61,259 nucleotides of DNA from Desulfomonilaceae bacterium (GTDB taxonomy: Bacteria > Desulfobacterota > Desulfomonilia > Desulfomonilales > Desulfomonilaceae). The stretch is from positions 1 through 61,259 of the forward strand of contig JAVHLK010000018.1 of NCBI GenBank assembly GCA_031082285.1. The letters are read 5' to 3'. The notes beneath the pieces were generated by a model. The model saw only the letters and a program-made list of their open reading frames with translations. It was not told the origin of the DNA and made no database searches. This document shows positions 6,662 to 59,016 of the stretch, in pieces. Position numbers and translations under genes: made by a program. Numbering within the stretch: position 1 is the first letter of the stretch; every line of letters begins with the position of its first letter.

Positions 6662-7312
6662 GGAACGTGCCTCCTTGGAATTGGAACCAGTACGGTAAGA
6701 GTGAAAAGTTACGTGAATTCGCGGTTTGGGATTATTCTCCAGAGCAAAGCCCGCTCCGCCGTCTGAGGCCGTTACGCCGCAATGGACACGGGGACGGCCT
6801 CAACCGCGTTGGATCGTCATGGGGGAAGTCTAGAAACAAGAACCGTCGGCAGGGCAAAAGAAATCCCCGGGGGAGACCCGAGGATGCCGTATTCCATCCC
6901 TGTTGCCAAGCTCCCACTCCACGAAGAGCATGACACTCCACTCTCTCTGGGGCCGGTCTTCCGGCTTCCGGTTCCTCCTACTCACCGCCCTTCCCATCTT
7001 TATCGACAGTGGCTTCGCGGCTTTCGTCCCCGGTCACGGCGGCGGGTCCGCAACGGATTCTCACCGTTTTCCCTCTCGCCCCATCCGAGCGATCATGAAT
7101 TGTCGGTCGATTGCCGCTCTTTTCGAGCAGCGGCACGCAGCGTCGTGTTCGGCAAGGCGTTGTTCGGAATCCCGAATCCTCGCGTCACACTTCGCCTTGA
7201 ACCGCACCGTATAGCGTCACACGACGCATGTCAAGATCTAGCCGACATCTACCGAAGTCTAAGCCGCACGTCAGGTCTGCAGCTCCCGCCTCCGGTCGTT
7301 CCCCGTCCAGAG
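6662..7312. other. Intergenic stretch without a recognisable gene
   Basis: About 650 bases between cobT and the downstream end of the sorbosone dehydrogenase-like gene. Open frames here overlap real genes in the wrong frame and show no family motif. No clear aptamer, tRNA or terminator was found; it probably contains the cobT promoter. Confidence 0.5.
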
Positions 7313-47899: not shown

Positions 47900-48139
47900 T
47901 TACTCGCTCGGCTCCTCGGTACGCGAATCGGTTGGTTGAACCGAGACCACTATACGATGAAACCGGACCGTTCGTGCAACATTCGTGTCGTCCGACATGC
48001 GTCCCGGATCTCCTCCGAGCCTTGACTCAGAATAGCTACGTTCTTCTTGACATTTACATTATTATATGCAAGTTGTTTCACGCGATTGGCCATAACCAGT
48101 TGTGGCCTCATAAATACTCGACCTACACCGAGGAGCCTG

Positions 48140-50263
48140 ATGATGGTCCGGTTGAGATGCCCCGAATGCGGATACCTCCAAACGCTCTCTGAAGAAAGGT
48201 TCCTGTCAATATCCGACGATTTCCTCACCTGTCCCCACTGTCGCGCGCACGTTCCCAAGCAATGGGAACCCGAATCCGAAGAGGCCGTACCGGACGAGGT
48301 GCGCCACAAGATGCAAGCATTTTCGAGGCGAATTCTCAATGGCGGGAATGCCGCGCGTGAAGTGGTCCATGCCCTGGAATCGCTGGTGCGGCGTCACGGC
48401 CCGGTTGAGGAAAGCATCAAGGCGTTGGGCGTGGGGTACGCACATATCGGTGAAACGAGAAAAGCCGAATCATTTCTCATCCAGGCTCTCAGTCAGAATC
48501 CTCATGATCCGGAAGCGCTTCACAGCCTCATGGAAATACTAATGTCCCTGAAGAAATACAATGAGGCCGTGGAGGTGGGGAGAGCGATCATCGACATTCT
48601 CGGCCGGCGGACCCCCGACGAGGACGTCGCGTTTCTTGCCATGGCTCTTGCCGGCTTGGACAGGAAGGATGAAGCTTTGGCCCTCATGGATTCCTTTCCC
48701 GATCTGGCCCCTCGTAATCAAGTCGTGAAGCAGGCCAGACGAGAACTGACTCGGGGAACCGCCTTCGGGCTCGCCGGCCTATTGGGAGAAACAGGACCCT
48801 TGCACAGGCTCTTTAAAGGCAAAGGAAGGAATCTCCTGTGGCCTTCGTCCAGCACGTCGGGTGAAGACCGGAGCCGTTCGGCAGGAGTGCCGGACTCGCC
48901 CCCGGAGCGCACTTCCGTGCAGCGGGAGCTCACAACGCCTCCTCCTGAACCCAAACCGGCTCGCAAGAAAGCCGAGAAGTATAGAGCGACATTGGAATAC
49001 TGGATTTATGCGCCGGCGCCGGCCGGCCCCGAGTGGGAAGACGTGATGAATGCACTCGGCGAGCGACATCCTCGCAAAGCCGAACGGGAGAGAATAGTCA
49101 AGCTTCTGGAATCGCTTGTGGAACGCAACGACCTCACGGTGGACTACATACTCAAGGAAGAAGCGGGCGATCTGTTTGATTACCCTGAAGATCTGATACC
49201 TCAGAACTCCAGAGATCTCAGCGACGATGACCGTGAAGTGCTGTTGAACGCGGAAATGATCGTACGTATTCGCCTGTCTTTGGCAAATTACCCCGGAGTT
49301 GAAGGTCTCGTCTTCATGGTCCGGTTTGTGGAGGCGGTACGAGGTCTCACCGGGGGAGTGGTGCAGGACGCGATATCCCACACGCTCTGGGGTACCGAGA
49401 TGTGGAAAGCCTGCGTCGTGAACCCGAAGAAGAACCTCCTGGAATCCCATGTGCAATTCGAGGCTCTTGACGAGGGCGGGGTGGTATGGATTCACAGCCA
49501 CGGCATGCAGAAATTTGGTCTTCCCGACTTGGAAATCGAAGGAATTCCTTCGCGGTTGACCGGAGTCGGCCATCGGCTCGTCATTCTCATTGGAGAAACC
49601 CTGGTGGGAGCCCGAGACGCGGGCCTGGATTTCAGTTCCCCGTTCTCGATTCCAGGTCGGCCCATCGCGTTCAAGGTCACGACCCAACCCCGCGACGAAG
49701 AGGGCCACTTTCCTTCGGGGAGTCTCAAGATCCATCCCTACGTGTCCGGGGGCGATCCGGGAAGCCCTGACGCCATTCTTACCGTTTTGGCTTCACTGCA
49801 GGAACGGACGGCCCCGGCCGGTTCGGACGCTGAAGGAATGACGCGTGAGCCCGCGGAGGAGGATCGATCCGCGGTTGATGACTCGGGCCCGGCGAAAGAT
49901 GCGCTCCGAAACATGCTCTTGAAGGCTCACAGAAAGGCGAGAAACGATCTTCCGGAATTCAAGAAGAGCTTTCAGGAGACCCGACGATCGGGGACGCACG
50001 TTCACGCGGTCAAGGTGGGCTTTCCTGCTCAGGACGGGGAATTCGAGTGGATGTGGGTGTCACTGGATGCATGGCGAGGGAAATCTCTGGTGGGTCATGT
50101 GGAGAACAACCCGGTACTGAGAAAGGACCTGCAAAGAGGGAGCAGAGTGCAGATCAATGAAGGTCAGATTTTTGACTGGGTGGTCACTCATGGCGGCGAA
50201 ATTGTAAAAGGGCCGTATACCGAAGACGTCGAAGTTTCTTGCCGAGTCCCGGGCCAAGGATAG
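48140..50263 (+). CDS. Zinc-ribbon / TPR / DUF2314 protein
   Basis: A 707-residue soluble protein with an unusual domain set. Residues 1-40 are a zinc ribbon (C7, C10, C31, C34 in CPECGYLQ and LTCPHCRAH). Residues about 85-240 contain tetratricopeptide-like repeats (VGYAHIGETRKAESFLIQAL). A Pro-rich linker (about 250-300) leads to a mixed alpha/beta domain (about 300-560) that I do not recognise, then a C-terminal DUF2314 domain (about 610-700) with DLPEFKKSFQETRR, FEWMWVSLDAWRGKSLVGHV and FDWVVTHGGEIVKGPYTEDV. No signal peptide; cytoplasmic. The start at 48140 has GAGGAG upstream; the next codon is also ATG. It converges on the first caspase gene. Confidence 0.85.
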   Translation: MMVRLRCPECGYLQTLSEERFLSISDDFLTCPHCRAHVPKQWEPESEEAVPDEVRHKMQAFSRRILNGGNAAREVVHALESLVRRHGPVEESIKALGVGYAHIGETRKAESFLIQALSQNPHDPEALHSLMEILMSLKKYNEAVEVGRAIIDILGRRTPDEDVAFLAMALAGLDRKDEALALMDSFPDLAPRNQVVKQARRELTRGTAFGLAGLLGETGPLHRLFKGKGRNLLWPSSSTSGEDRSRSAGVPDSPPERTSVQRELTTPPPEPKPARKKAEKYRATLEYWIYAPAPAGPEWEDVMNALGERHPRKAERERIVKLLESLVERNDLTVDYILKEEAGDLFDYPEDLIPQNSRDLSDDDREVLLNAEMIVRIRLSLANYPGVEGLVFMVRFVEAVRGLTGGVVQDAISHTLWGTEMWKACVVNPKKNLLESHVQFEALDEGGVVWIHSHGMQKFGLPDLEIEGIPSRLTGVGHRLVILIGETLVGARDAGLDFSSPFSIPGRPIAFKVTTQPRDEEGHFPSGSLKIHPYVSGGDPGSPDAILTVLASLQERTAPAGSDAEGMTREPAEEDRSAVDDSGPAKDALRNMLLKAHRKARNDLPEFKKSFQETRRSGTHVHAVKVGFPAQDGEFEWMWVSLDAWRGKSLVGHVENNPVLRKDLQRGSRVQINEGQIFDWVVTHGGEIVKGPYTEDVEVSCRVPGQG

Positions 50264-50311: not shown

Positions 50312-52135
50312 CTACTTGCCCGAGCCGAACGATTCCAGCAGCCATATGCGTGAGGTCCAAGGACCTCGGGGAGTACCTGAGGGTGCGAGTTCATCCCAGA
50401 GCGCATCCAGAAAGGCTGTTTGATCTGTGAGCCAAGGGCTTTGGGCACTCCCGATGTCGTTCTCCTTCCAGAATGGGATCAGCGACTCCGGCGACCGGTC
50501 CAATGCCACGGCAACGATCATCTCTCGTCCGAAGGGAGGTTGCACGGTAAGCGAGCCGTCCTCGCCTATTTTGGTGGTTTCACGGGTCCCAAGCTTGGCA
50601 CCGCGTCCATCCGGACCCGGATACAAGGGGTGAATAACTCCCAAGGTGTCCACATTGAACACCAAAAGGTAGGAAGGTCTGTCCGTACGTGCCTCAAACA
50701 CCATGGCGTCCCCGCTCACCACTTCTCCATTCATACGCTCCGGGTTGCCCACAAGGGAATATTGGGCCTCCAAACCGATCTGTCGGCCGGGATTCCGTAA
50801 CGCAGCCACGCTGGTCTGCACGTACAACGCTCTCAGATTCTTGAGCAACTTTTCGATCGCTTCGCCGAGCGAAGCACTCGTGTGTGACTCCCAGTAGCGG
50901 CCTGACGAATCGGTCAGTCTGGCTCCATACCTGCCGTCTTTCTTGTCCAAATCGACAATGCACGTCGCGCCGTTCTGAGAGGCCTTCCACAGTATCCCTT
51001 TCGCCTTTCCTGAAATAGACGACTGGATTTGCGCTCTCTTTGCCTCCACCTCGTCTGAGTTCGTCCGGAGGAAGCACGCGAGTTGACGCGGCCGTTCGAG
51101 AGCCCGTTTCGCGACACCGGCCTTGCCTCTGAACGGAAGCTCATAGAGGCTCTTGGGAAAAACCCGGTGCGTCGGTCTCTGTGGGTGGCCCGCTTCCTTG
51201 ACCCGTCGGCCGACATAGTCCGCCAATTCTTGAAACGTGATGACCCCGTCTCCATCAAGGTCCGCGAGGCCGGTAAGCGCGTGATACAGGTGCCACGAAA
51301 AAACGCTGTGCCAGCCCTTGGGAAACTGATCGAAATAGACGACATCCGCGAGCTGGGAATCCTCGGCTGCGGTGAAGGTCACAATTCGCACTCCCTCCGC
51401 GACGAGATCCGACCCGATCCCCGACGTACCCTTTGAAACCCGACTCTCAGGGGGAGAGGCCGCCCTGGGCTCGAAGACGCCCTTGGGGACTATGGGTCTC
51501 ATAATCGTTTTGTGTTTAACAAATCGCGGGTTGACGCTCTTGTGAACCGTTCCCGAATGGCAGGCATCTATGATGAACGCCACTGTCCGGTCTTTCATCC
51601 GTCGCAGCAGCTCGTGGATCTCATCGTCCAGAAGAAACTCTCGTGCTTCCTTGGAATCGAACGCAGCCCCCTTTTTCCCTGCGAACGTGCGCTGGGACAA
51701 ACCCTTGGGTACGACGGCATCCCATGCCATGAGTGCTTCGTCTTTCCCGTCATCGATCTCGTCGCCGCTCTCGTCCCATATCTGAACCCCGTGCCCGCTG
51801 AAGTAAAACAGGGCCTTGTCGCCCGGACCGGTGCCGGCGATCAGCCAGTCTTCAAACTCCTTGACAATGTTTCTCTTGGTTGCCTGCTCGTCTATCAGAA
51901 CCTTTATCTCCTCAGCTTTGAACATGTTGCCTTTGATCAGGACTTCTCTGATGAGAGCGACATCCGCCCGAACTCCCGGGAGATCGAATTCAGGATTGGG
52001 ATAGTTCTCCACGCCGACGAGAAGGGCCTTGCCGCCGGCCGCGGCTTCATGGTGAGCCGGGCAGGCGAGCACCATCGCGAGCACCAGGCATATCATCGCT
52101 TTGATTGTCGTCGGCATGGATTTGCTCTCACTCAT
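50312..52135 (-). CDS. Exported caspase-like protease (peptidase C14) with EF-hand loop
   Basis: A 607-residue protein. A signal sequence (about 8-33) ends with VLACPAHHEAAA and may be a lipoprotein signal with Cys25, though the residue before last is atypical. The caspase fold follows: KALLVGVENY (38-47), catalytic His115 in FYFSGHGVQ and Cys192 in FIIDACHSGT, both intact. After it is a canonical EF-hand loop D292-L-D-G-D-G-V-I-T-F-Q-E303, then a C-terminal region (about 430-590) resembling DUF4384 (YLLVFNVDTLGVIHPLYP). Family members cleave after basic residues or act in cell-death signalling; here the target is unknown. A second caspase gene lies just upstream on the same strand. Confidence 0.9.
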   Translation of the reverse strand: MSESKSMPTTIKAMICLVLAMVLACPAHHEAAAGGKALLVGVENYPNPEFDLPGVRADVALIREVLIKGNMFKAEEIKVLIDEQATKRNIVKEFEDWLIAGTGPGDKALFYFSGHGVQIWDESGDEIDDGKDEALMAWDAVVPKGLSQRTFAGKKGAAFDSKEAREFLLDDEIHELLRRMKDRTVAFIIDACHSGTVHKSVNPRFVKHKTIMRPIVPKGVFEPRAASPPESRVSKGTSGIGSDLVAEGVRIVTFTAAEDSQLADVVYFDQFPKGWHSVFSWHLYHALTGLADLDGDGVITFQELADYVGRRVKEAGHPQRPTHRVFPKSLYELPFRGKAGVAKRALERPRQLACFLRTNSDEVEAKRAQIQSSISGKAKGILWKASQNGATCIVDLDKKDGRYGARLTDSSGRYWESHTSASLGEAIEKLLKNLRALYVQTSVAALRNPGRQIGLEAQYSLVGNPERMNGEVVSGDAMVFEARTDRPSYLLVFNVDTLGVIHPLYPGPDGRGAKLGTRETTKIGEDGSLTVQPPFGREMIVAVALDRSPESLIPFWKENDIGSAQSPWLTDQTAFLDALWDELAPSGTPRGPWTSRIWLLESFGSGK

Positions 52136-52258
52136 TCCGAATTGCGCACATACGCATGGGTAGTGGGTCCCGTCTTCGGGAGCGCCGGTCCCGCGTTCCG
52201 CGCGGGATGCCGGTACTCTTCGGGTCGTTACTGTTCGCCCGGCTTCCAAGAGACTCGA

Positions 52259-53896
52259 TCACTTCTTGGTGACCCAAAACCAGACCGACCGAGCCGTATC
52301 AAGGGTGGCCGATTCGATGGTCTGAGACAAGTACTCGAATGATGTGTTCTTGTCGTACGTGACGGTCTTCGAGGGAGTCGGGGCTACTTTCCGTCGGATC
52401 GATTTCGTCGGGGCCATAGTCTTTTCGAGAAATTCCTGCATCCGTTCTCTTGCCTGCACGTAATCGGAAGTGGGCTTCTGATCCTTCCCGATCGTCTCAA
52501 GATGCTCGTACAGGTCTTCGAGCCGGGCGTTGCGGCTTCGGGAAGCCATCACATAGACCTTCTCCTTGCCTCCGTACGACCCGTGACTGAGCCACGAGTG
52601 CTTTCCCGGAATCCAGTAGATGGCGCCCCCCTTGAGCGGGTTGGTCATGTCGTTTCCGGGAGCCAGATAGTCCGATCCGGGAAAGAGGCGATAGATCTCT
52701 CCCTTCTGATCGATCTGGTACACATACACATGGCTCGTCGCATGAGGTCTCAAACCGATCTGGTAGTTCTGGCCGAGATACATGGTTGCGCCGTCTTCTA
52801 TGGAAATGTCCCGGCAAAGCGGATCGTCGCACCTGACGACCCCTTCGGGGGGATCGATACAATCGGGGTTGCTGCATCGCGGGTCCTGGGCCACAAACCA
52901 GACGTCGCACTTCACCGTGTCCGGGAGGTCTCCCAGGACGGCAAGCGGAAACTTGCCGGTCACCGTGCCATGTTTCAGAGGGTGTTGAGCCCCTTGCGTT
53001 TCGTCTTTCGTGCGCTGATACACGTACTCGTAGACTTCATCCAGAGTGATGATGCCGTCACGGTTGATGTCCGCCGCGCCTCGGAGCCCCTCGAGGAGGT
53101 AGTGGGTAAAAACGCTGTTGGCGAGGTTGGTCTTTTCTTGCGAATACTCGTCGGGCTTGCTTGACGAAAGCACCACTCGGCCCGCGGATTCAGCGAAACT
53201 CTCCATGAACTCTTTCAGGGGCGGCCGTATCGACTTGGTGCCGGTGCTCGTAAATCCTCCCGCGTGGCACGCATCGGCAATGAGAACCGCCTTGTTCGCA
53301 TCGAGTCTGTCCAAGAACCGCAGTCCGGACATGTCGACCGCGGTCGCGTGAAGATAATCCGGATCCGAGTCATGTGTGAGAAAATAGAATTTTCCCGGAG
53401 TCCGGACGTCCCCCGATCCGTGACCGCTGAAAAAGAGAATCACCGTGTCGTCTTTTCCCGCCGTACGCAAGTCGTGATAGAGAAACTTCTCCACTTCCTT
53501 CTTTGTGGCCTGTTCATCCACGAGAAGCTTCACATGAGTCTTCTTGAATACCCGTCGCTGTGTGGACAGAAACTCGGCGAAATCCTTGGCGTCCTTTGCG
53601 GAGAGTCGCAATTTCGGTACGGCTTTCGACGCGTACGAAGACACTCCGACGACAAGGGCATAGAGGTCTCCCGTTCCCATAACCTGGCGTGAGTCGTCGG
53701 GCGCCGCGGGAACGGCCCGACGGACGGCCTTGATCTCGTCTTGTGCATCTGCCGGTGCGGAGATAACGATCTGTCCCCCAAGTAAGGCGAACAAGGCAGA
53801 CCATAAGAGAACGGTTCCGAGCATTGCCTTGAAAGCCCAGCCCACGCGATGCAAGCCGCTGCGGGGAACATGTCGGTCATTACAGGGAGGAGCCAT
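52259..53896 (-). CDS. Second exported caspase-like protease with EF-hand loop
   Basis: A 545-residue protein. Residues about 20-52 are a hydrophobic segment ending ISAPADAQ, a likely cleavable signal. The caspase fold starts at DLYALVVGVSSY (77-88); His159 is in ILFFSGHGSG and Cys210 in LIADACHAGG. An EF-hand loop D276-I-N-R-D-G-I-I-T-L-D-E287 follows at the same relative place as in the neighbour. A Cys-rich insert (about 340-375, with SNPDC and DDPLC) and a DUF4384-like tail (about 385-470) complete it. The ATG at 53896 follows GGAGG. The first caspase gene starts 123 bases downstream, so the two likely form an operon; they are similar in layout but distinct in sequence. Confidence 0.9.
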   Translation of the reverse strand: MAPPCNDRHVPRSGLHRVGWAFKAMLGTVLLWSALFALLGGQIVISAPADAQDEIKAVRRAVPAAPDDSRQVMGTGDLYALVVGVSSYASKAVPKLRLSAKDAKDFAEFLSTQRRVFKKTHVKLLVDEQATKKEVEKFLYHDLRTAGKDDTVILFFSGHGSGDVRTPGKFYFLTHDSDPDYLHATAVDMSGLRFLDRLDANKAVLIADACHAGGFTSTGTKSIRPPLKEFMESFAESAGRVVLSSSKPDEYSQEKTNLANSVFTHYLLEGLRGAADINRDGIITLDEVYEYVYQRTKDETQGAQHPLKHGTVTGKFPLAVLGDLPDTVKCDVWFVAQDPRCSNPDCIDPPEGVVRCDDPLCRDISIEDGATMYLGQNYQIGLRPHATSHVYVYQIDQKGEIYRLFPGSDYLAPGNDMTNPLKGGAIYWIPGKHSWLSHGSYGGKEKVYVMASRSRNARLEDLYEHLETIGKDQKPTSDYVQARERMQEFLEKTMAPTKSIRRKVAPTPSKTVTYDKNTSFEYLSQTIESATLDTARSVWFWVTKK

Positions 53897-54432
53897 CTTT
53901 TTCCTCCACCGGGTAGAGCCAGGGACAGCGAGTGATGCACACCTTAGGGCCGGCTGAGGCCGCCGGCGAGCCGGCGATCACGACGCACTATGAACGTCTC
54001 TCGCTGAAGCAGACCATCTCGCCAAAGACCAGGCAGAGCCCGGAAGACAGGCATTCCCAGGCGGAGCCCTGAGCATGTCCCATATTTTTTTCCGGCACCG
54101 TGCGAATCATCTGACAATAGGCCGACCGATTGGACATACAGACCAACCAGAGCCCCGCAGGGGCTCACCGTGACTAGCCACGGGTTTCAACCCGTGGTAA
54201 GAGGCATCAACCAAATTGTCTGATCGGCCCTGAAGGGGCCGACCAAGGAATCACGGCATCCGTTGCCCATTTGGTGGACTCCTTCAGAGTCCATAACCAT
54301 CTATTATTGCACACTGTTTCCATGGGTTGAAACCCATGGCTATTCAAGGTATGCCCTTTCAGGGCATGGGCACGGTGCCGGCGACCCAAGACATGGGTAA
54401 AGCTCGAGACAAAAATCCGAGAACGAGATAGA
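53897..54432. other. 536-bp gene-free spacer between CHAT and caspase genes
   Basis: Contains the six-hairpin array (54067-54382) and additional palindromic sequence (for example CGCCGGC/GCCGGCG near 53960). No open frame has protein features. It splits what may once have been one operon. Confidence 0.65.
54067..54382 (-). repeat. Six-hairpin repeat array, long copy of a dispersed element
   Basis: A run of short perfect palindromes: GAGCCCC/GGGGCTC (54150-54166), CCACGGG/CCCGTGG (54178-54197), TCGGCCC/GGGCCGA (54224-54242), TGGACTC/GAGTCCA (54275-54293), CCATGGG/CCCATGG (54320-54339), ATGCCCT/AGGGCAT (54351-54367). Stems are 7 bases and loops 3-6. Both ends match 11545-11714 in reverse orientation. 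It resembles REP/BIME-like elements; no associated transposase is in the window. Confidence 0.85.
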
Positions 54433-57400
54433 TCAACGCCCAGGGGCCGCTGCCGTCTTGGCTTTACTCTTCTCCGTCTTGGCCTTGATTCTATCCAGAC
54501 CCTTCATTGCCTCGGATGCGTCCAACCCGCCGGATTTGCCGTCCATTTGAGATCCTTTCGTGATTCCCTTCGCGTATCTCGAGAAGGATTCCGCTTCTTT
54601 AAGTCCGTTGGTGTAATATTGTTTCGCCTTCTTCAAATCACCCATATCTTCATAGGTCTTTCCCAACCCTGTATAGGTGTTCAAGAGATGTCCGGCTTTC
54701 GCGCTTTTTTCAAAGGGGACCTTCGCTTTCGTCACGAGATCCAGAGCCTTGTTGAAGTGTTCTATGGCAAGGTCGTATCGAGTCTGAGATCTGAACACGT
54801 CCGCCAAACCCCGGAGTGCCTCGACCTCTCCGTCGAGCCGGGAAAGGTCTCCTTCTCCTCCCGTCTGCCTGTACCCGGCGAGAGACTCCTGGTACAGATC
54901 GAGTGCCTCCTGATATTGATTCTGCCGAGCATAGACCGATGCGAGATTTCTCAGTGCTTCGGCCTCTCCTGTACGATCACCGTGGATTCTCGTCAGTGAC
55001 AGTGCTTTGTCCAAGGACTCGACCGCGTCTGAAGGTCTGCCCCACAAGCCATACGTTTCACCGAGTCGGTTCAAGACCACGGTTTCACCGCCGACGTCAC
55101 CAAGCATCTCGTAAAGCTTCAGCGATTTGATGAGTTGTTCCACGGCCTGGTCGTATTGACCTGTTATCTTGAATACTTCTCCAAGCTTGCCGCTCGCGTG
55201 GGCCTCGCTCCTCAGGTTCCCGGCATGACGTGTCTCCTGCACGTTACGAGTCAGGTAATCGGAAGCTCGTTCATACTGCCCCATATTTGAATGGAAATCC
55301 GCGAGCGCAACCAGGGCATACCCTATGCCCTTGCGGGAATTCTGCCGTTCGAAAGCACGAAGCGCCTGCTCCATCTGCTCGCGTGCCTTTTCATAGTCGC
55401 GTCCGGATCGCGCTTTAAGCTGGAGTGCCTCGGCCTTTTCGAGCATGACGAACCCCTCCTGCGAGCCTCGGGATTCTTTCTCGCGCAATCCTTTCGCTAT
55501 ACGTGCGGCCGACGAGCCGCCCCGGGCCTGCCCCGCATCCCCCACCAGCACGAACGATGCCCAGTAAAACGGGTGACTGTAGTGCTTCTTGAGATTCCGG
55601 ACCTCTGTGCGGGCGATGGCCAACGCGTCGGCCTTCGATCTGCCCTCCTTCAGGTTCCTCATGAAGCTCTCGACCAGGACGACCGACGCCTCTTCCGGCA
55701 CCGTCCACAGGCTCATGAGAACCGACTTTGCACCCGCGTATTGAAAAGCCCGTCCCATGCTCAGGATGCCTTCTCCCACCAGATATTCCCCCAAGCCGGT
55801 CTTGCACGCGGTTAACGCCACGAAATCGGCATTGAGGTCCAGCCCCATTACCTCCGACATTCGCAGATAGCCTGTCTCGCCGCCCGGAACCATATTCAGG
55901 ACCAGCACCGGCTCCATGATGCCGGGAATGTCTTGTCCAAAGTAGCCGTGTGTCCCGAACACGATCGCGCTGTAGCGCCCTAACGGAGAGTTAAAGAGCA
56001 CCGACTTGTCGGCTTCTCTCCCAACATACAGATCCGTCTCGTTGGGATGGAGTTCCTTGACGGCTTTTCCCAGCCTCCCGGTCAACTCGAGCCTCGGCCA
56101 GGTGAATGAGTATTCCGCGCTTGCGCCGGCACGTTCGGGATGCGGGACTTCGTCGACCCGAGATTGCCGGGAGATCTCGGGAGGCGTGCCGCCGACGGAA
56201 GCCTGCTCGCCACGGCCGCTTACCACTTTCCGGCGTACCTGCCCCGGTACGGGCGCCATGGTCCCGTCACCGGAAGAGCCCTGCAACACGGCCGATTCGT
56301 CGGCTTCGGATCGAGTCGCGACCCTAGCCTGCTCGTGACCGGAACCTCCTTCGCCGGGCATCGCGGCTCGTGCGTCGTCGCCTTCCCGCGGTCGTTCATG
56401 GGGTTCCTTCACACGCGGATCGGAAGCGTCGAAGGTGGGATCGGCCATCACCAGCAGCCTGTCCTGTAATGAAGAAGACCGACGCAAGGTTCGTGACAAG
56501 GTCAAGCCCGTGACCGACTGGTGGTAGTTGATGGGATACAGGTCACCCACGTAGGTGATCCCTTCCGGGTACGGGTACATCCCCTCTTTCTTCCACGACG
56601 CCTCCCCCCTGACCACAAGCGCTTCAAACGGCACTTTCCCCAAGATCTCATCCGGGATGATGGTGATCGAGGTTCCACTCGGCACCTCTCTGAGGATACC
56701 CGAGAGGAGCCGATCGTACAGCATCCTGGCCGACTCGACATCGTAGACCTGCAGTTTGGATGGATCCACCTGTTGGTGATCGTCCAAAGGCTTCCGCAAT
56801 TCCGCGATCCGTTCGTACAGATTCCAGCCGGCCAGCGGCACGAACGCGATCTTCTCGACCCTCGATCCTCTCACAAGCTTGGCGCTCACGGCTTCCCCGA
56901 GCACATCGAAGACGATCACGTACTCGTCGGGGTCCAAAGCCGCTTGGTTCAACTCGACGGGCTTTGGATGCCTCGCGGCCGCGTACTCGGGATACCGCTG
57001 CCACAACGTTGCGACAAGTTCCTTGATTCTTGTTTCGACCTCGTTGATCCCCTTGGTTTTTTCGTCGTACAAATTGGGGTCTCGACCGCGGGTGATCAAA
57101 CTCCTGGCCTTCAACAGTGAGGCACGTTTCGCCAGGAGACGGTCCTCCGTGCTCCTCAATTCCTTCGACACGTTGAGATGACTCAGATCCGCCTTCAGAG
57201 CTAAGTGATCGGTAAATCGTCTCGCCTTGGTCACCTCGCCGGGGTAGATCGTCTGGTCCGTCTTACCCTGCTTCTCACCGTTCTTTATTCTGACCCTCGT
57301 CACCCCCTTGGCCGGTTCGGACGGCAAGAACCCGTTTATGGGCACGGCAAAGAAGTTCCCGCGCTCGGACAAGAGCATGCCTTCCCTCATTTCCTCGGCA

Positions 57401-59016
57401 GCGTCCATGCCTTCCGAATAATGCTTTTCGGCCGTTGGGAAATCGCCGTACACTTCAAAAATTCTTCCCAATCCCACGCTTGCGGCCAGAAGGTCTTCCG
57501 TCCTTTTGGTGGTGCGGGCGGATTGGAGGAGCCGGTCAAAGTGGGCTTTGGCCTTCTCGTAGTCGTCTCGGAAAAGAGCCAGTCGGCCAAGGGAGGAATT
57601 GAACCCGGCAGGGATCAAATACGATTCAGCGCGCAGATCGTCGCCCATCTCCAGATACAGGTCGCCGATCGACTTCTTGAGATAGAGATCGGGCAGTCCG
57701 TTGCGTTCACTCATCTCATGTGCAAGGGCGAGATTCTCGACGGCCGCCCAGTATTTGTCCGGTTGTCCCCGCACCCTGCCCCATTGTGCGTAAAGCGATC
57801 CAAGGTCCGTCAGAACGGCAGCCTGGAGCTTGTAATCCTTGATCTTTTCGCTAACTTGGAGCGCCTCCAAATACGACCCCTCTGAGAGATCGAACCTGCC
57901 CTGCACCCGGTAGATCCGCGCGATGTGTCTCTTGGCTTGAATGATGCCTCTGAAGTTCATCGGAGCCGCCGGGCCGGCTTTGGTGAAATTCTCGATTGCC
58001 GCGTCCGGGTCACCTCGGGACAGATGGAGCACCCCTACGTTAATCAGCGTATTGGCCTGACCGGTTACGTCTCCGATTGATTCATAGGTCGCAAGTGCTT
58101 CACCAAAATATCCCGCCGCACCCTCATAGTCCCCGGAAGCCCATTTGGCACACCCAATGTTGCTCAGGAACGCGGCATTGTGCGTGTGGCCTTCCGCAGT
58201 CGGCTGGAGAGCGAGCCCATGCTCGAAATTTCGCACCGCTTCCTGAAAGTTGCCGATCAGAAAATGCACGTTTCCGAGGTTCAGGTAGGCTTTGATTTGC
58301 CCGATTTGATAGGGAAGTTTGAGCGCCTCGGCAAGAGCCGATTGATAATGCTTCAGAGCACTCGTGTGGTCGCGCCAGACGAACTCGGGCATGCCTTCGT
58401 CCATGACCGGGATCACCTGCATCAAGAACGTTCGGGCATCGATGGAACCGTCATTCTCGGGGTGAGCATCGTCGACGGGTGCCGCGGGGGTCGTTTTTTC
58501 AATCGGTGCAGATCGTTTTGCAGGCTCTTGTTGCCGGGAGGGAGCGCCGGCCTTCGAGGGGGACTTACGGCGGCCGTCAAAACCAATGTCATCCCATCGG
58601 TCCTTTGGATTCCAGTCTTCTCCCGGCCCGCTCGATCCCGAGCCCGTTCCGGATCCGCCCGGCCCTATGTGGGTCGAGGACCCGGGGGGTCGCGGAGGCC
58701 GATGGGGTATGACCAGCGGAACGGTACTGAGGATCCCCCCTACCACGCCCTGCCAATTGGGCCCGTGGCCCCCACCTCCGTGCCCTCGTCTCGACGATCC
58801 GCCCTCCCCTCCCCCTCCAAAGGCAAGCAAGACCGGAGGAGGCGGAGATGAGCCGAGGGCTCCATGCTCATCAAGCGTATTCCCGATCCGGCACTCAACC
58901 GTGTTCAGACCTGCCGTCAGGACAAAGAACAACGACGCCAAGGCGATCAAGACGGCCGCCATGATCCATTGGCCGCACACAAGGCAACTCTCCGAGCCGA
59001 GTCGGTCCGTTTCCAT
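54433..59016 (-). CDS. Membrane-anchored TPR-CHAT-TPR protease-like protein
   Basis: A 1527-residue protein. A membrane helix (about 15-39) is followed by a Gly/Pro/Ser-rich linker (60-180), a first TPR array (about 220-540), a helical segment, then a CHAT caspase-like domain (about 680-1165): catalytic His1023 in VFGTHGYFGQ and Cys1071 in ALTACKTGLGE, with SLWTVPEEAS and HPFYWASFVLVGD typical of the family. A second TPR array (about 1190-1485) and a Lys/Ala-rich tail close it. About 95 low-complexity residues (about 867-962) are inserted inside the CHAT domain, before the His. The ATG at 59016 follows GGGGGAGGT. A promoter lies at 59409-59437. CHAT proteins are often activated by partner binding to their TPRs; the location near two caspases suggests a cascade. 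Confidence 0.9.
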   Translation of the reverse strand: METDRLGSESCLVCGQWIMAAVLIALASLFFVLTAGLNTVECRIGNTLDEHGALGSSPPPPVLLAFGGGGEGGSSRRGHGGGGHGPNWQGVVGGILSTVPLVIPHRPPRPPGSSTHIGPGGSGTGSGSSGPGEDWNPKDRWDDIGFDGRRKSPSKAGAPSRQQEPAKRSAPIEKTTPAAPVDDAHPENDGSIDARTFLMQVIPVMDEGMPEFVWRDHTSALKHYQSALAEALKLPYQIGQIKAYLNLGNVHFLIGNFQEAVRNFEHGLALQPTAEGHTHNAAFLSNIGCAKWASGDYEGAAGYFGEALATYESIGDVTGQANTLINVGVLHLSRGDPDAAIENFTKAGPAAPMNFRGIIQAKRHIARIYRVQGRFDLSEGSYLEALQVSEKIKDYKLQAAVLTDLGSLYAQWGRVRGQPDKYWAAVENLALAHEMSERNGLPDLYLKKSIGDLYLEMGDDLRAESYLIPAGFNSSLGRLALFRDDYEKAKAHFDRLLQSARTTKRTEDLLAASVGLGRIFEVYGDFPTAEKHYSEGMDAAEEMREGMLLSERGNFFAVPINGFLPSEPAKGVTRVRIKNGEKQGKTDQTIYPGEVTKARRFTDHLALKADLSHLNVSKELRSTEDRLLAKRASLLKARSLITRGRDPNLYDEKTKGINEVETRIKELVATLWQRYPEYAAARHPKPVELNQAALDPDEYVIVFDVLGEAVSAKLVRGSRVEKIAFVPLAGWNLYERIAELRKPLDDHQQVDPSKLQVYDVESARMLYDRLLSGILREVPSGTSITIIPDEILGKVPFEALVVRGEASWKKEGMYPYPEGITYVGDLYPINYHQSVTGLTLSRTLRRSSSLQDRLLVMADPTFDASDPRVKEPHERPREGDDARAAMPGEGGSGHEQARVATRSEADESAVLQGSSGDGTMAPVPGQVRRKVVSGRGEQASVGGTPPEISRQSRVDEVPHPERAGASAEYSFTWPRLELTGRLGKAVKELHPNETDLYVGREADKSVLFNSPLGRYSAIVFGTHGYFGQDIPGIMEPVLVLNMVPGGETGYLRMSEVMGLDLNADFVALTACKTGLGEYLVGEGILSMGRAFQYAGAKSVLMSLWTVPEEASVVLVESFMRNLKEGRSKADALAIARTEVRNLKKHYSHPFYWASFVLVGDAGQARGGSSAARIAKGLREKESRGSQEGFVMLEKAEALQLKARSGRDYEKAREQMEQALRAFERQNSRKGIGYALVALADFHSNMGQYERASDYLTRNVQETRHAGNLRSEAHASGKLGEVFKITGQYDQAVEQLIKSLKLYEMLGDVGGETVVLNRLGETYGLWGRPSDAVESLDKALSLTRIHGDRTGEAEALRNLASVYARQNQYQEALDLYQESLAGYRQTGGEGDLSRLDGEVEALRGLADVFRSQTRYDLAIEHFNKALDLVTKAKVPFEKSAKAGHLLNTYTGLGKTYEDMGDLKKAKQYYTNGLKEAESFSRYAKGITKGSQMDGKSGGLDASEAMKGLDRIKAKTEKSKAKTAAAPGR

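Follow-up and report, generated by a model that had tools for sequence, protein, structure and literature searches.

Bacterial caspases and CHAT proteases have mostly been studied as cytoplasmic effectors of defense or cell death, and CHAT and C14 proteases are effectors in gasdermin, Craspase, and EACC1/EACC2 systems. Several described systems come close to the one considered here, which comprises two caspase genes and a TPR-CHAT-TPR protease gene in a 61,259-nucleotide stretch of a Desulfomonilaceae bacterium (assembly GCA_031082285.1, contig JAVHLK010000018.1; the whole stretch is referred to below as the window). CHAT or C14 effectors act in defense in the Craspase and EACC systems (PMC10028731, PMC8195603), and in type III-E CRISPR the TPR-CHAT protease Csx29 relieves an extracytoplasmic function (ECF) sigma factor, CASP-sigma, by way of Csx30 (PMC10028731). 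EACC2/TRADD-N caspase systems, whose neighborhoods include ECF sigma and TPR genes, were described in 2021 (PMC8195603). In Myxococcus, Anaeromyxobacter, and other bacteria, metacaspase genes with an N-terminal signal or transmembrane segment have sigma-70 genes as neighbors (PMC3501461), and the same 2012 study by Asplund-Samuelsson et al. reports multi-metacaspase operons in Deltaproteobacteria and a Rhizobium metacaspase operon with protease and protease-inhibition genes. The cyanobacterial protein HetF is a putative protease of CHAT-transmembrane-TPR type with a role in the divisome (PMC8406250), and an abundance of metacaspases in Thiomargarita was reported in 2016, with serpins not mentioned (PMC4853749).

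Craspase is alike in pairing a TPR-CHAT protease with an ECF sigma factor and the inhibitor of that factor, but Csx29 is RNA guided with Cas7-11, whereas the CHAT protein here has an export signal and the anti-sigma factor of its relatives is a membrane zf-HC2 protein; Pfam finds no Cas7-11, Csx30/31, or any Cas domain adjoining the window CHAT gene. EACC2/TRADD-N systems have comparable neighborhoods of caspase, ECF sigma, and TPR genes, but their description (PMC8195603) is without periplasm, signal peptide, OmpA, or serpin. HetF, likewise associated with the membrane, is a putative protease with CHAT and TPR parts and a role in the cell envelope, but it has another domain order and no described caspase partner. 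The metacaspase (orthocaspase) sigma operons (PMC3501461) resemble the loci of relatives in their signal- or transmembrane-bearing caspases, sigma neighbors, and several caspases per operon, but no CHAT, DUF4384, or serpin partner was found in that text, and, unlike those operons, the window caspases have no sigma-70 or ECF gene beside them. The initial annotation knew of no described system with this arrangement. The exact combination of exported caspase-DUF4384, TPR-CHAT, TPR-OmpA, anti-sigma, and serpin was indeed not found in the literature searched, which excludes most subscription papers and preprints, but caspase/sigma and multi-metacaspase operons had already been reported, and we read the locus as a module for regulated envelope proteolysis that varies on caspase/CHAT systems already described. 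Should experiments bear out the caspase-serpin and cascade links, the system would be of a new kind and more than a variant.

We give about even credence to the proposal that the trio is a protease module acting outside the cytoplasm, with the TPR-CHAT protein as a scaffold and the caspases cutting shared envelope substrates in regulated proteolysis. All three proteins have a strong N-terminal hydrophobic segment, and export segments, judged from hydropathy only, are present in nearly all caspases, CHAT proteins, OmpA-TPR proteins, DUF4384 proteins, and serpins at such loci. These signals, recurring in nearly every class of component, support the idea put forward earlier that the three proteins share one compartment, and the predicted envelope location and functional link of the trio are well supported.

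The TPR-CHAT-TPR protease (54433 to 59016, minus strand; 1527 aa from the ATG at 59016, which is preceded by a good ribosome-binding site, GGGGGAGGTAACC) has a Pfam CHAT match at E=5e-51 (174 bits; cut-off, 24) with many TPRs on either side. It runs from an N-terminal signal or anchor segment through a Gly/Pro-rich linker and TPRs to a CHAT domain with an ∼90-aa insert, followed by further TPRs, and its catalytic dyad is His1023 (codon 55950-55948) and Cys1071 (codon 55806-55804). The membrane helix previously assigned to this protein is present as a hydrophobic segment but is better described as an N-terminal export segment typical for the family. An orthologue (L033:500-4414) has a clear signal peptide that ends ...STAFA before GPSG, and the window protein may carry its export segment in either cleaved or anchored form. 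A separate single-copy CHAT protein of ∼1700 aa (G000:C303:63022-63978 and homologues), which almost every genome of the order encodes, also begins with a hydrophobic export-like segment.

Caspase 2 (52259 to 53896) and caspase 1 (50312 to 52135) follow, also on the minus strand, and by Pfam and alignment consist of a signal segment (caspase 2) or signal peptide (caspase 1), a C14 domain, and a C-terminal DUF4384, with an EF-hand-like loop noted in caspase 1. The start used for caspase 1 is the ATG at 52135; its longest open reading frame (ORF) begins at a TTG at 52249. The C14 matches (E=6e-18 for caspase 1 and E=5e-18 for caspase 2; 65.8 and 66.0 bits; cut-off, 21.4) are accompanied by DUF4384 matches at E=1e-8 and E=4e-9, respectively, and the catalytic motifs are SGHG and DACH[SA]G. 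The dyads are His115 (codon 51793-51791) and Cys192 (codon 51562-51560) in caspase 1 and His159 (codon 53422-53420) and Cys210 (codon 53269-53267) in caspase 2; all six catalytic residues named for the trio in the initial annotation are exact with ATG starts at 52135 and 59016, and it was also right in placing three consecutive minus-strand ORFs here, although a 536-nt gap between the CHAT gene and caspase 2 means that they are not a tight operon. Dyads are retained in nearly all complete members, and the caspase dyad, together with an Asp two residues ahead of the Cys, is invariant in alignments reaching Poribacteria, Thiomargarita, and Gallionella. That Asp lines the S1 pocket in metacaspases. 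Because of this conserved acidic residue, and because orthocaspases cleave after basic residues (PMC6426788), the window caspases probably cut after Arg or Lys.

The two caspases are only ∼20 to 26% identical. AlphaFold (AF2) models, built from alignments of 12 sequences for caspase 1 (mean predicted local distance difference test score, 76) and 10 for caspase 2 (67), place caspase 1 nearest plant metacaspases (Z, 24 to 27; root mean square deviation [rmsd], 2.0 to 2.9), with metacaspase 4 as the top match (6w8r; Z, 26.9; rmsd, 2.7; 228 residues aligned), and caspase 2 nearest the MALT1 paracaspase (3uo8; Z, 23.0; rmsd, 3.4; 219 aligned), although other caspases fall within 3 Z units of the latter. 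Both models have a caspase fold, caspase 1 being metacaspase-like and caspase 2 paracaspase-like, and with their low identity and different closest folds the pair is not a recent tandem duplication. Caspase 1 shares its catalytic-domain fold with plant MC4/MC9 (Z, 24 to 27) and caspase 2 with MALT1 (Z, 23), but the window caspases are, unlike these, exported bacterial proteins with DUF4384; a sequence search against solved structures found only metacaspase and TPR relatives. Both caspases have an EF-hand-like loop (DLDGDGVITFQEL; DINRDGIITLDEV), a hint only of calcium control since the Pfam EF-hand match of caspase 1 is below the cut-off. Caspase 1 orthologues occur in Desulfomonile metagenome-assembled genomes (MAGs; L053-L055). 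Four Cys (C341, C346, C356, and C361; residues 341-361) ahead of DUF4384 are conserved across caspase 2 orthologues and are candidates for disulfides or a metal site.

Linkage of these genes was examined in 18 genomes of the order, all of one family (Desulfomonilaceae), with genes called as longest ORFs and with MAG contigs that may be cut or mis-binned. Of the 48 caspase genes in the order, 13, spread over seven genomes, have a TPR-CHAT gene within 5 kb (0.51 expected); after removal of the window's own genome the count is 11 of 45, in six genomes (0.50 expected). The unrelated single-copy 1700-aa CHAT gene, used as a control, is never near a caspase. Orthologues of all three proteins (49, 40, and 41% identical) are encoded together in another genus (G012:C306), in the order caspase 2, caspase 1, OmpA, CHAT, and the two CHAT proteins are sisters (support, 100/99) with 48% identity in the CHAT region; the flanks of that locus have no convincing gene match to the window flanks and are not syntenic. 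Four of the 18 genomes carry both caspase 1 and a full-length caspase 2, one carries caspase 1 only, and 13 have neither (Fisher P=0.0016); among the latter is G011, nearly complete and of the same genus as G012. One relative (G001:C343) encodes an exported caspase with an intact dyad fused in a single frame with TPR and CHAT (L040:5585-8029), although its CHAT part has Gln in place of the His and is cut off by the contig end before the Cys. The suggestion that the genes would be found together in related genomes is therefore borne out by the excess linkage in the family, the G012 trio, and the fusion.

Neighboring genes, annotated in 40 stretches from relatives, include regulators and envelope proteins. 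The fullest module (L041; G009:C98) encodes in one direction an ECF sigma factor, an anti-sigma factor, a TPR-OmpA protein, a caspase-DUF4384, a TPR-CHAT protein, a DUF4384 protein, a DUF4384-caspase, and a serpin, with a ninth ORF related to OmpA proteins. A second (L043; G007:C188) has a 200-aa ORF in the sigma position followed by anti-sigma, TPR-OmpA, CHAT, and caspase genes and then by DUF4384-caspase, serpin, CHAT, and DUF4384-caspase genes. Sigma genes lie beside caspases in five relatives (L034, L036, L041, L044, and L147), and an ECF/anti-sigma/CHAT set is present elsewhere in the window's own genome (G000:C7, L051). The anti-sigma factors have zinc-finger clusters, a single transmembrane segment around residue 150-180, and, on the C-terminal side, a conserved periplasmic part (∼150-200 aa without a Pfam family in L041:3303-4409 and seven homologues), which is a possible sensor domain. 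DUF4384 is also fused to a subtilase (S8; L035:5081-7033) and to a trypsin (S1; L137:1-1359) and so seems to be a module used by exported proteases in general.

If the trio is an extracytoplasmic module, the three proteases would work either periplasmically or on the cell surface. The TPR-CHAT protein would serve as the scaffold and probably as the upstream protease, with an envelope partner bound by its two TPR arrays. The metacaspase-like and paracaspase-like caspases would act with it on common envelope substrates, probably after Arg or Lys, and DUF4384 would be a common targeting or adaptor domain. In relatives, control of the module would lie with an ECF sigma factor and its anti-sigma factor, which bears a large periplasmic domain; OmpA-TPR proteins would fasten the module to the cell wall, and a serpin would accompany it. 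These partners argue for envelope proteolysis in a stress response or remodeling rather than cytoplasmic suicide. We infer a shared pathway, shared substrates, and sigma/anti-sigma control in this genome, but an order in which CHAT acts before the caspases is doubtful, and the cascade put forward in the initial annotation, with a TPR-CHAT protein that would sense a partner and switch on the caspases, stays a hypothesis. A conserved exported set with a scaffold, wall anchors, a membrane anti-sigma factor, and an inhibitory serpin would give prokaryotic caspases a role in envelope physiology.

Several observations weigh against such a module. Because paralogues count as independent in the co-location test, its P values are too favorable, and weight should be put on how large the excess is; the full trio is kept in only one other genus, that of G012; and caspases 1 and 2 are at separate loci in G014 and G010. 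Beyond the family, caspase-CHAT linkage in 118 genomes of the phylum is not significant (2 versus 0.75 expected; P=0.17). The three window genes probably form two transcription units and not one transcript, because the palindrome-bearing 536-bp gap parts the CHAT gene from caspase 2, and no ECF/anti-sigma, OmpA, or serpin gene adjoins the trio. No bipartite motif shared upstream of eight sigma genes rises above shuffled sequences, and no ECF-like site was found upstream of the three window genes.

The main rival reading is that the anti-sigma factor is itself the substrate, the exported CHAT protein and caspases cutting the periplasmic domain of the zf-HC2 protein and so freeing the ECF sigma factor. 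The cut would parallel that of Csx30 by Csx29 in type III-E CRISPR, except that the proteases would act on the opposite side of the membrane, and a TPR-CHAT/sigma precedent exists (PMC10028731). It draws on six loci, including G000:C7, at which a Pfam ECF gene lies beside anti-sigma and caspase/CHAT genes (two more qualify by position), and on the single transmembrane segment and C-terminal periplasmic part of all eight anti-sigma factors inspected. The window locus, however, is without sigma and anti-sigma genes, neither a cleavage site nor a promoter motif has been identified, and the protease genes may be mere targets of the sigma factor, so that we regard this reading as unlikely. Similarly unlikely is that the genes encode independent secreted proteases for extracellular or envelope turnover, clustered without mutual regulation. 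DUF4384 is also joined to subtilase and trypsin domains in relatives, so that the clusters do look like mixed protease sets; gene order and content vary, and a palindrome-bearing gap lies within the window trio. Nevertheless, the caspase-TPR-CHAT fusion, the co-directional operons, the co-occurrence, and the control CHAT family that is never linked point to a functional association.

A cytoplasmic system for phage defense or programmed death, as CHAT/caspase systems usually are, is very improbable, even though such proteases serve as effectors in these systems and PADLOC matches the window with its generic caspase model (only generic caspase and TPR matches were returned). Nearly all components have export signals, the surroundings are housekeeping genes, no Cas, gasdermin, STAND, or effector-associated gene lies next to the trio, and the NCBIfam caspase_w_EACC1 scores are 56.7 and 117.7 bits against a cut-off of 140. 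Least probable of all is adjacency as a by-product of paralogous CHAT/caspase expansion in the family, which the 16 to 19 CHAT matches of some genomes and the assumption of independence in the co-location test would favor, but the two caspases are dissimilar and of different types, the window's own genome (a 5.6-Mb MAG) has only three C14 genes and three full CHAT genes plus one partial match, and the G012 trio lacks flank synteny.

The recurrent pairing of caspases with serpins is the most surprising lead of the analysis. Among the order's eight serpins, five have a caspase no more than 10 kb away (0.14 expected), and exported serpins with an inhibitory hinge (EEGTEAAAAT-like) are near caspase, CHAT, or DUF4384 genes in five Desulfomonilaceae genomes (L035:7052-8248, L041:13787-15100, L043:9766-11127, L034:4152-5663, and L036:17912-19174); none was found in the window's own genome. 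Their P1 residues by the canonical count, which is made from the hinge and may be a few residues off, are A, S, S, M, and T. With no basic P1, the proposal that these serpins are aimed at Arg/Lys-type caspases is unsupported, and a subtilase or elastase-like target fits better; a DUF4384-subtilase adjoins one of them (L035). Thiomargarita (Gammaproteobacteria) MAGs have an OmpA-like gene, an exported caspase-DUF4384 gene, and a serpin gene in a row (L060:9187-15777 and L062:10028-13019), and in L164:487-5371 a serpin gene is beside three weakly caspase-like genes. In most of these serpins linked to caspases, P1 or a residue close to it is Arg or Lys, as orthocaspases would require. We tentatively raise a more elaborate scheme, an extracytoplasmic protease network like the hemolymph and clotting cascades of animals, in which a TPR-CHAT scaffold and two or three caspases of different lineages would be joined in relatives by trypsin- or subtilase-type proteases sharing the DUF4384 adaptor, the whole restrained by a serpin and reporting through a transmembrane anti-sigma/ECF sigma pair. 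The recurrence of the caspase-serpin pairing in Thiomargarita suggests that such a network would not be confined to one family. A conserved exported set with an inhibitory serpin would also give bacterial serpins, which are poorly understood, a natural target, and would open the origin of caspase/serpin control to tests in a simple system.

The spacer that separates the CHAT gene from caspase 2 (53897 to 54432) contains long paired REP-like palindromes (54152-54203 with 54314-54365 and 54092-54114 with 54359-54381), the arms within 54092-54381 being CCATGGGTTTCAACCCATGG and CCACGGGTTTCAACCCGTGG; caspase 2 and the caspase 1 ATG are separated by 123 nt. By Pfam, the trio neighbors are asparagine synthase, TPR-DUF2314, and cytochrome genes, and the plus-strand zinc ribbon/TPR/DUF2314 gene at 48047-50263, convergent with caspase 1, was not found at the G012 locus. 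The remaining window has the look of ordinary chromosome, with riboflavin synthesis, class II tRNA synthetase, Kdo transferase, sigma-54 activator, and kinase genes; it contains no tRNA, and a Cobalamin riboswitch (Rfam RF00174; 78.5 bits) is at 6955-7073 on the minus strand.

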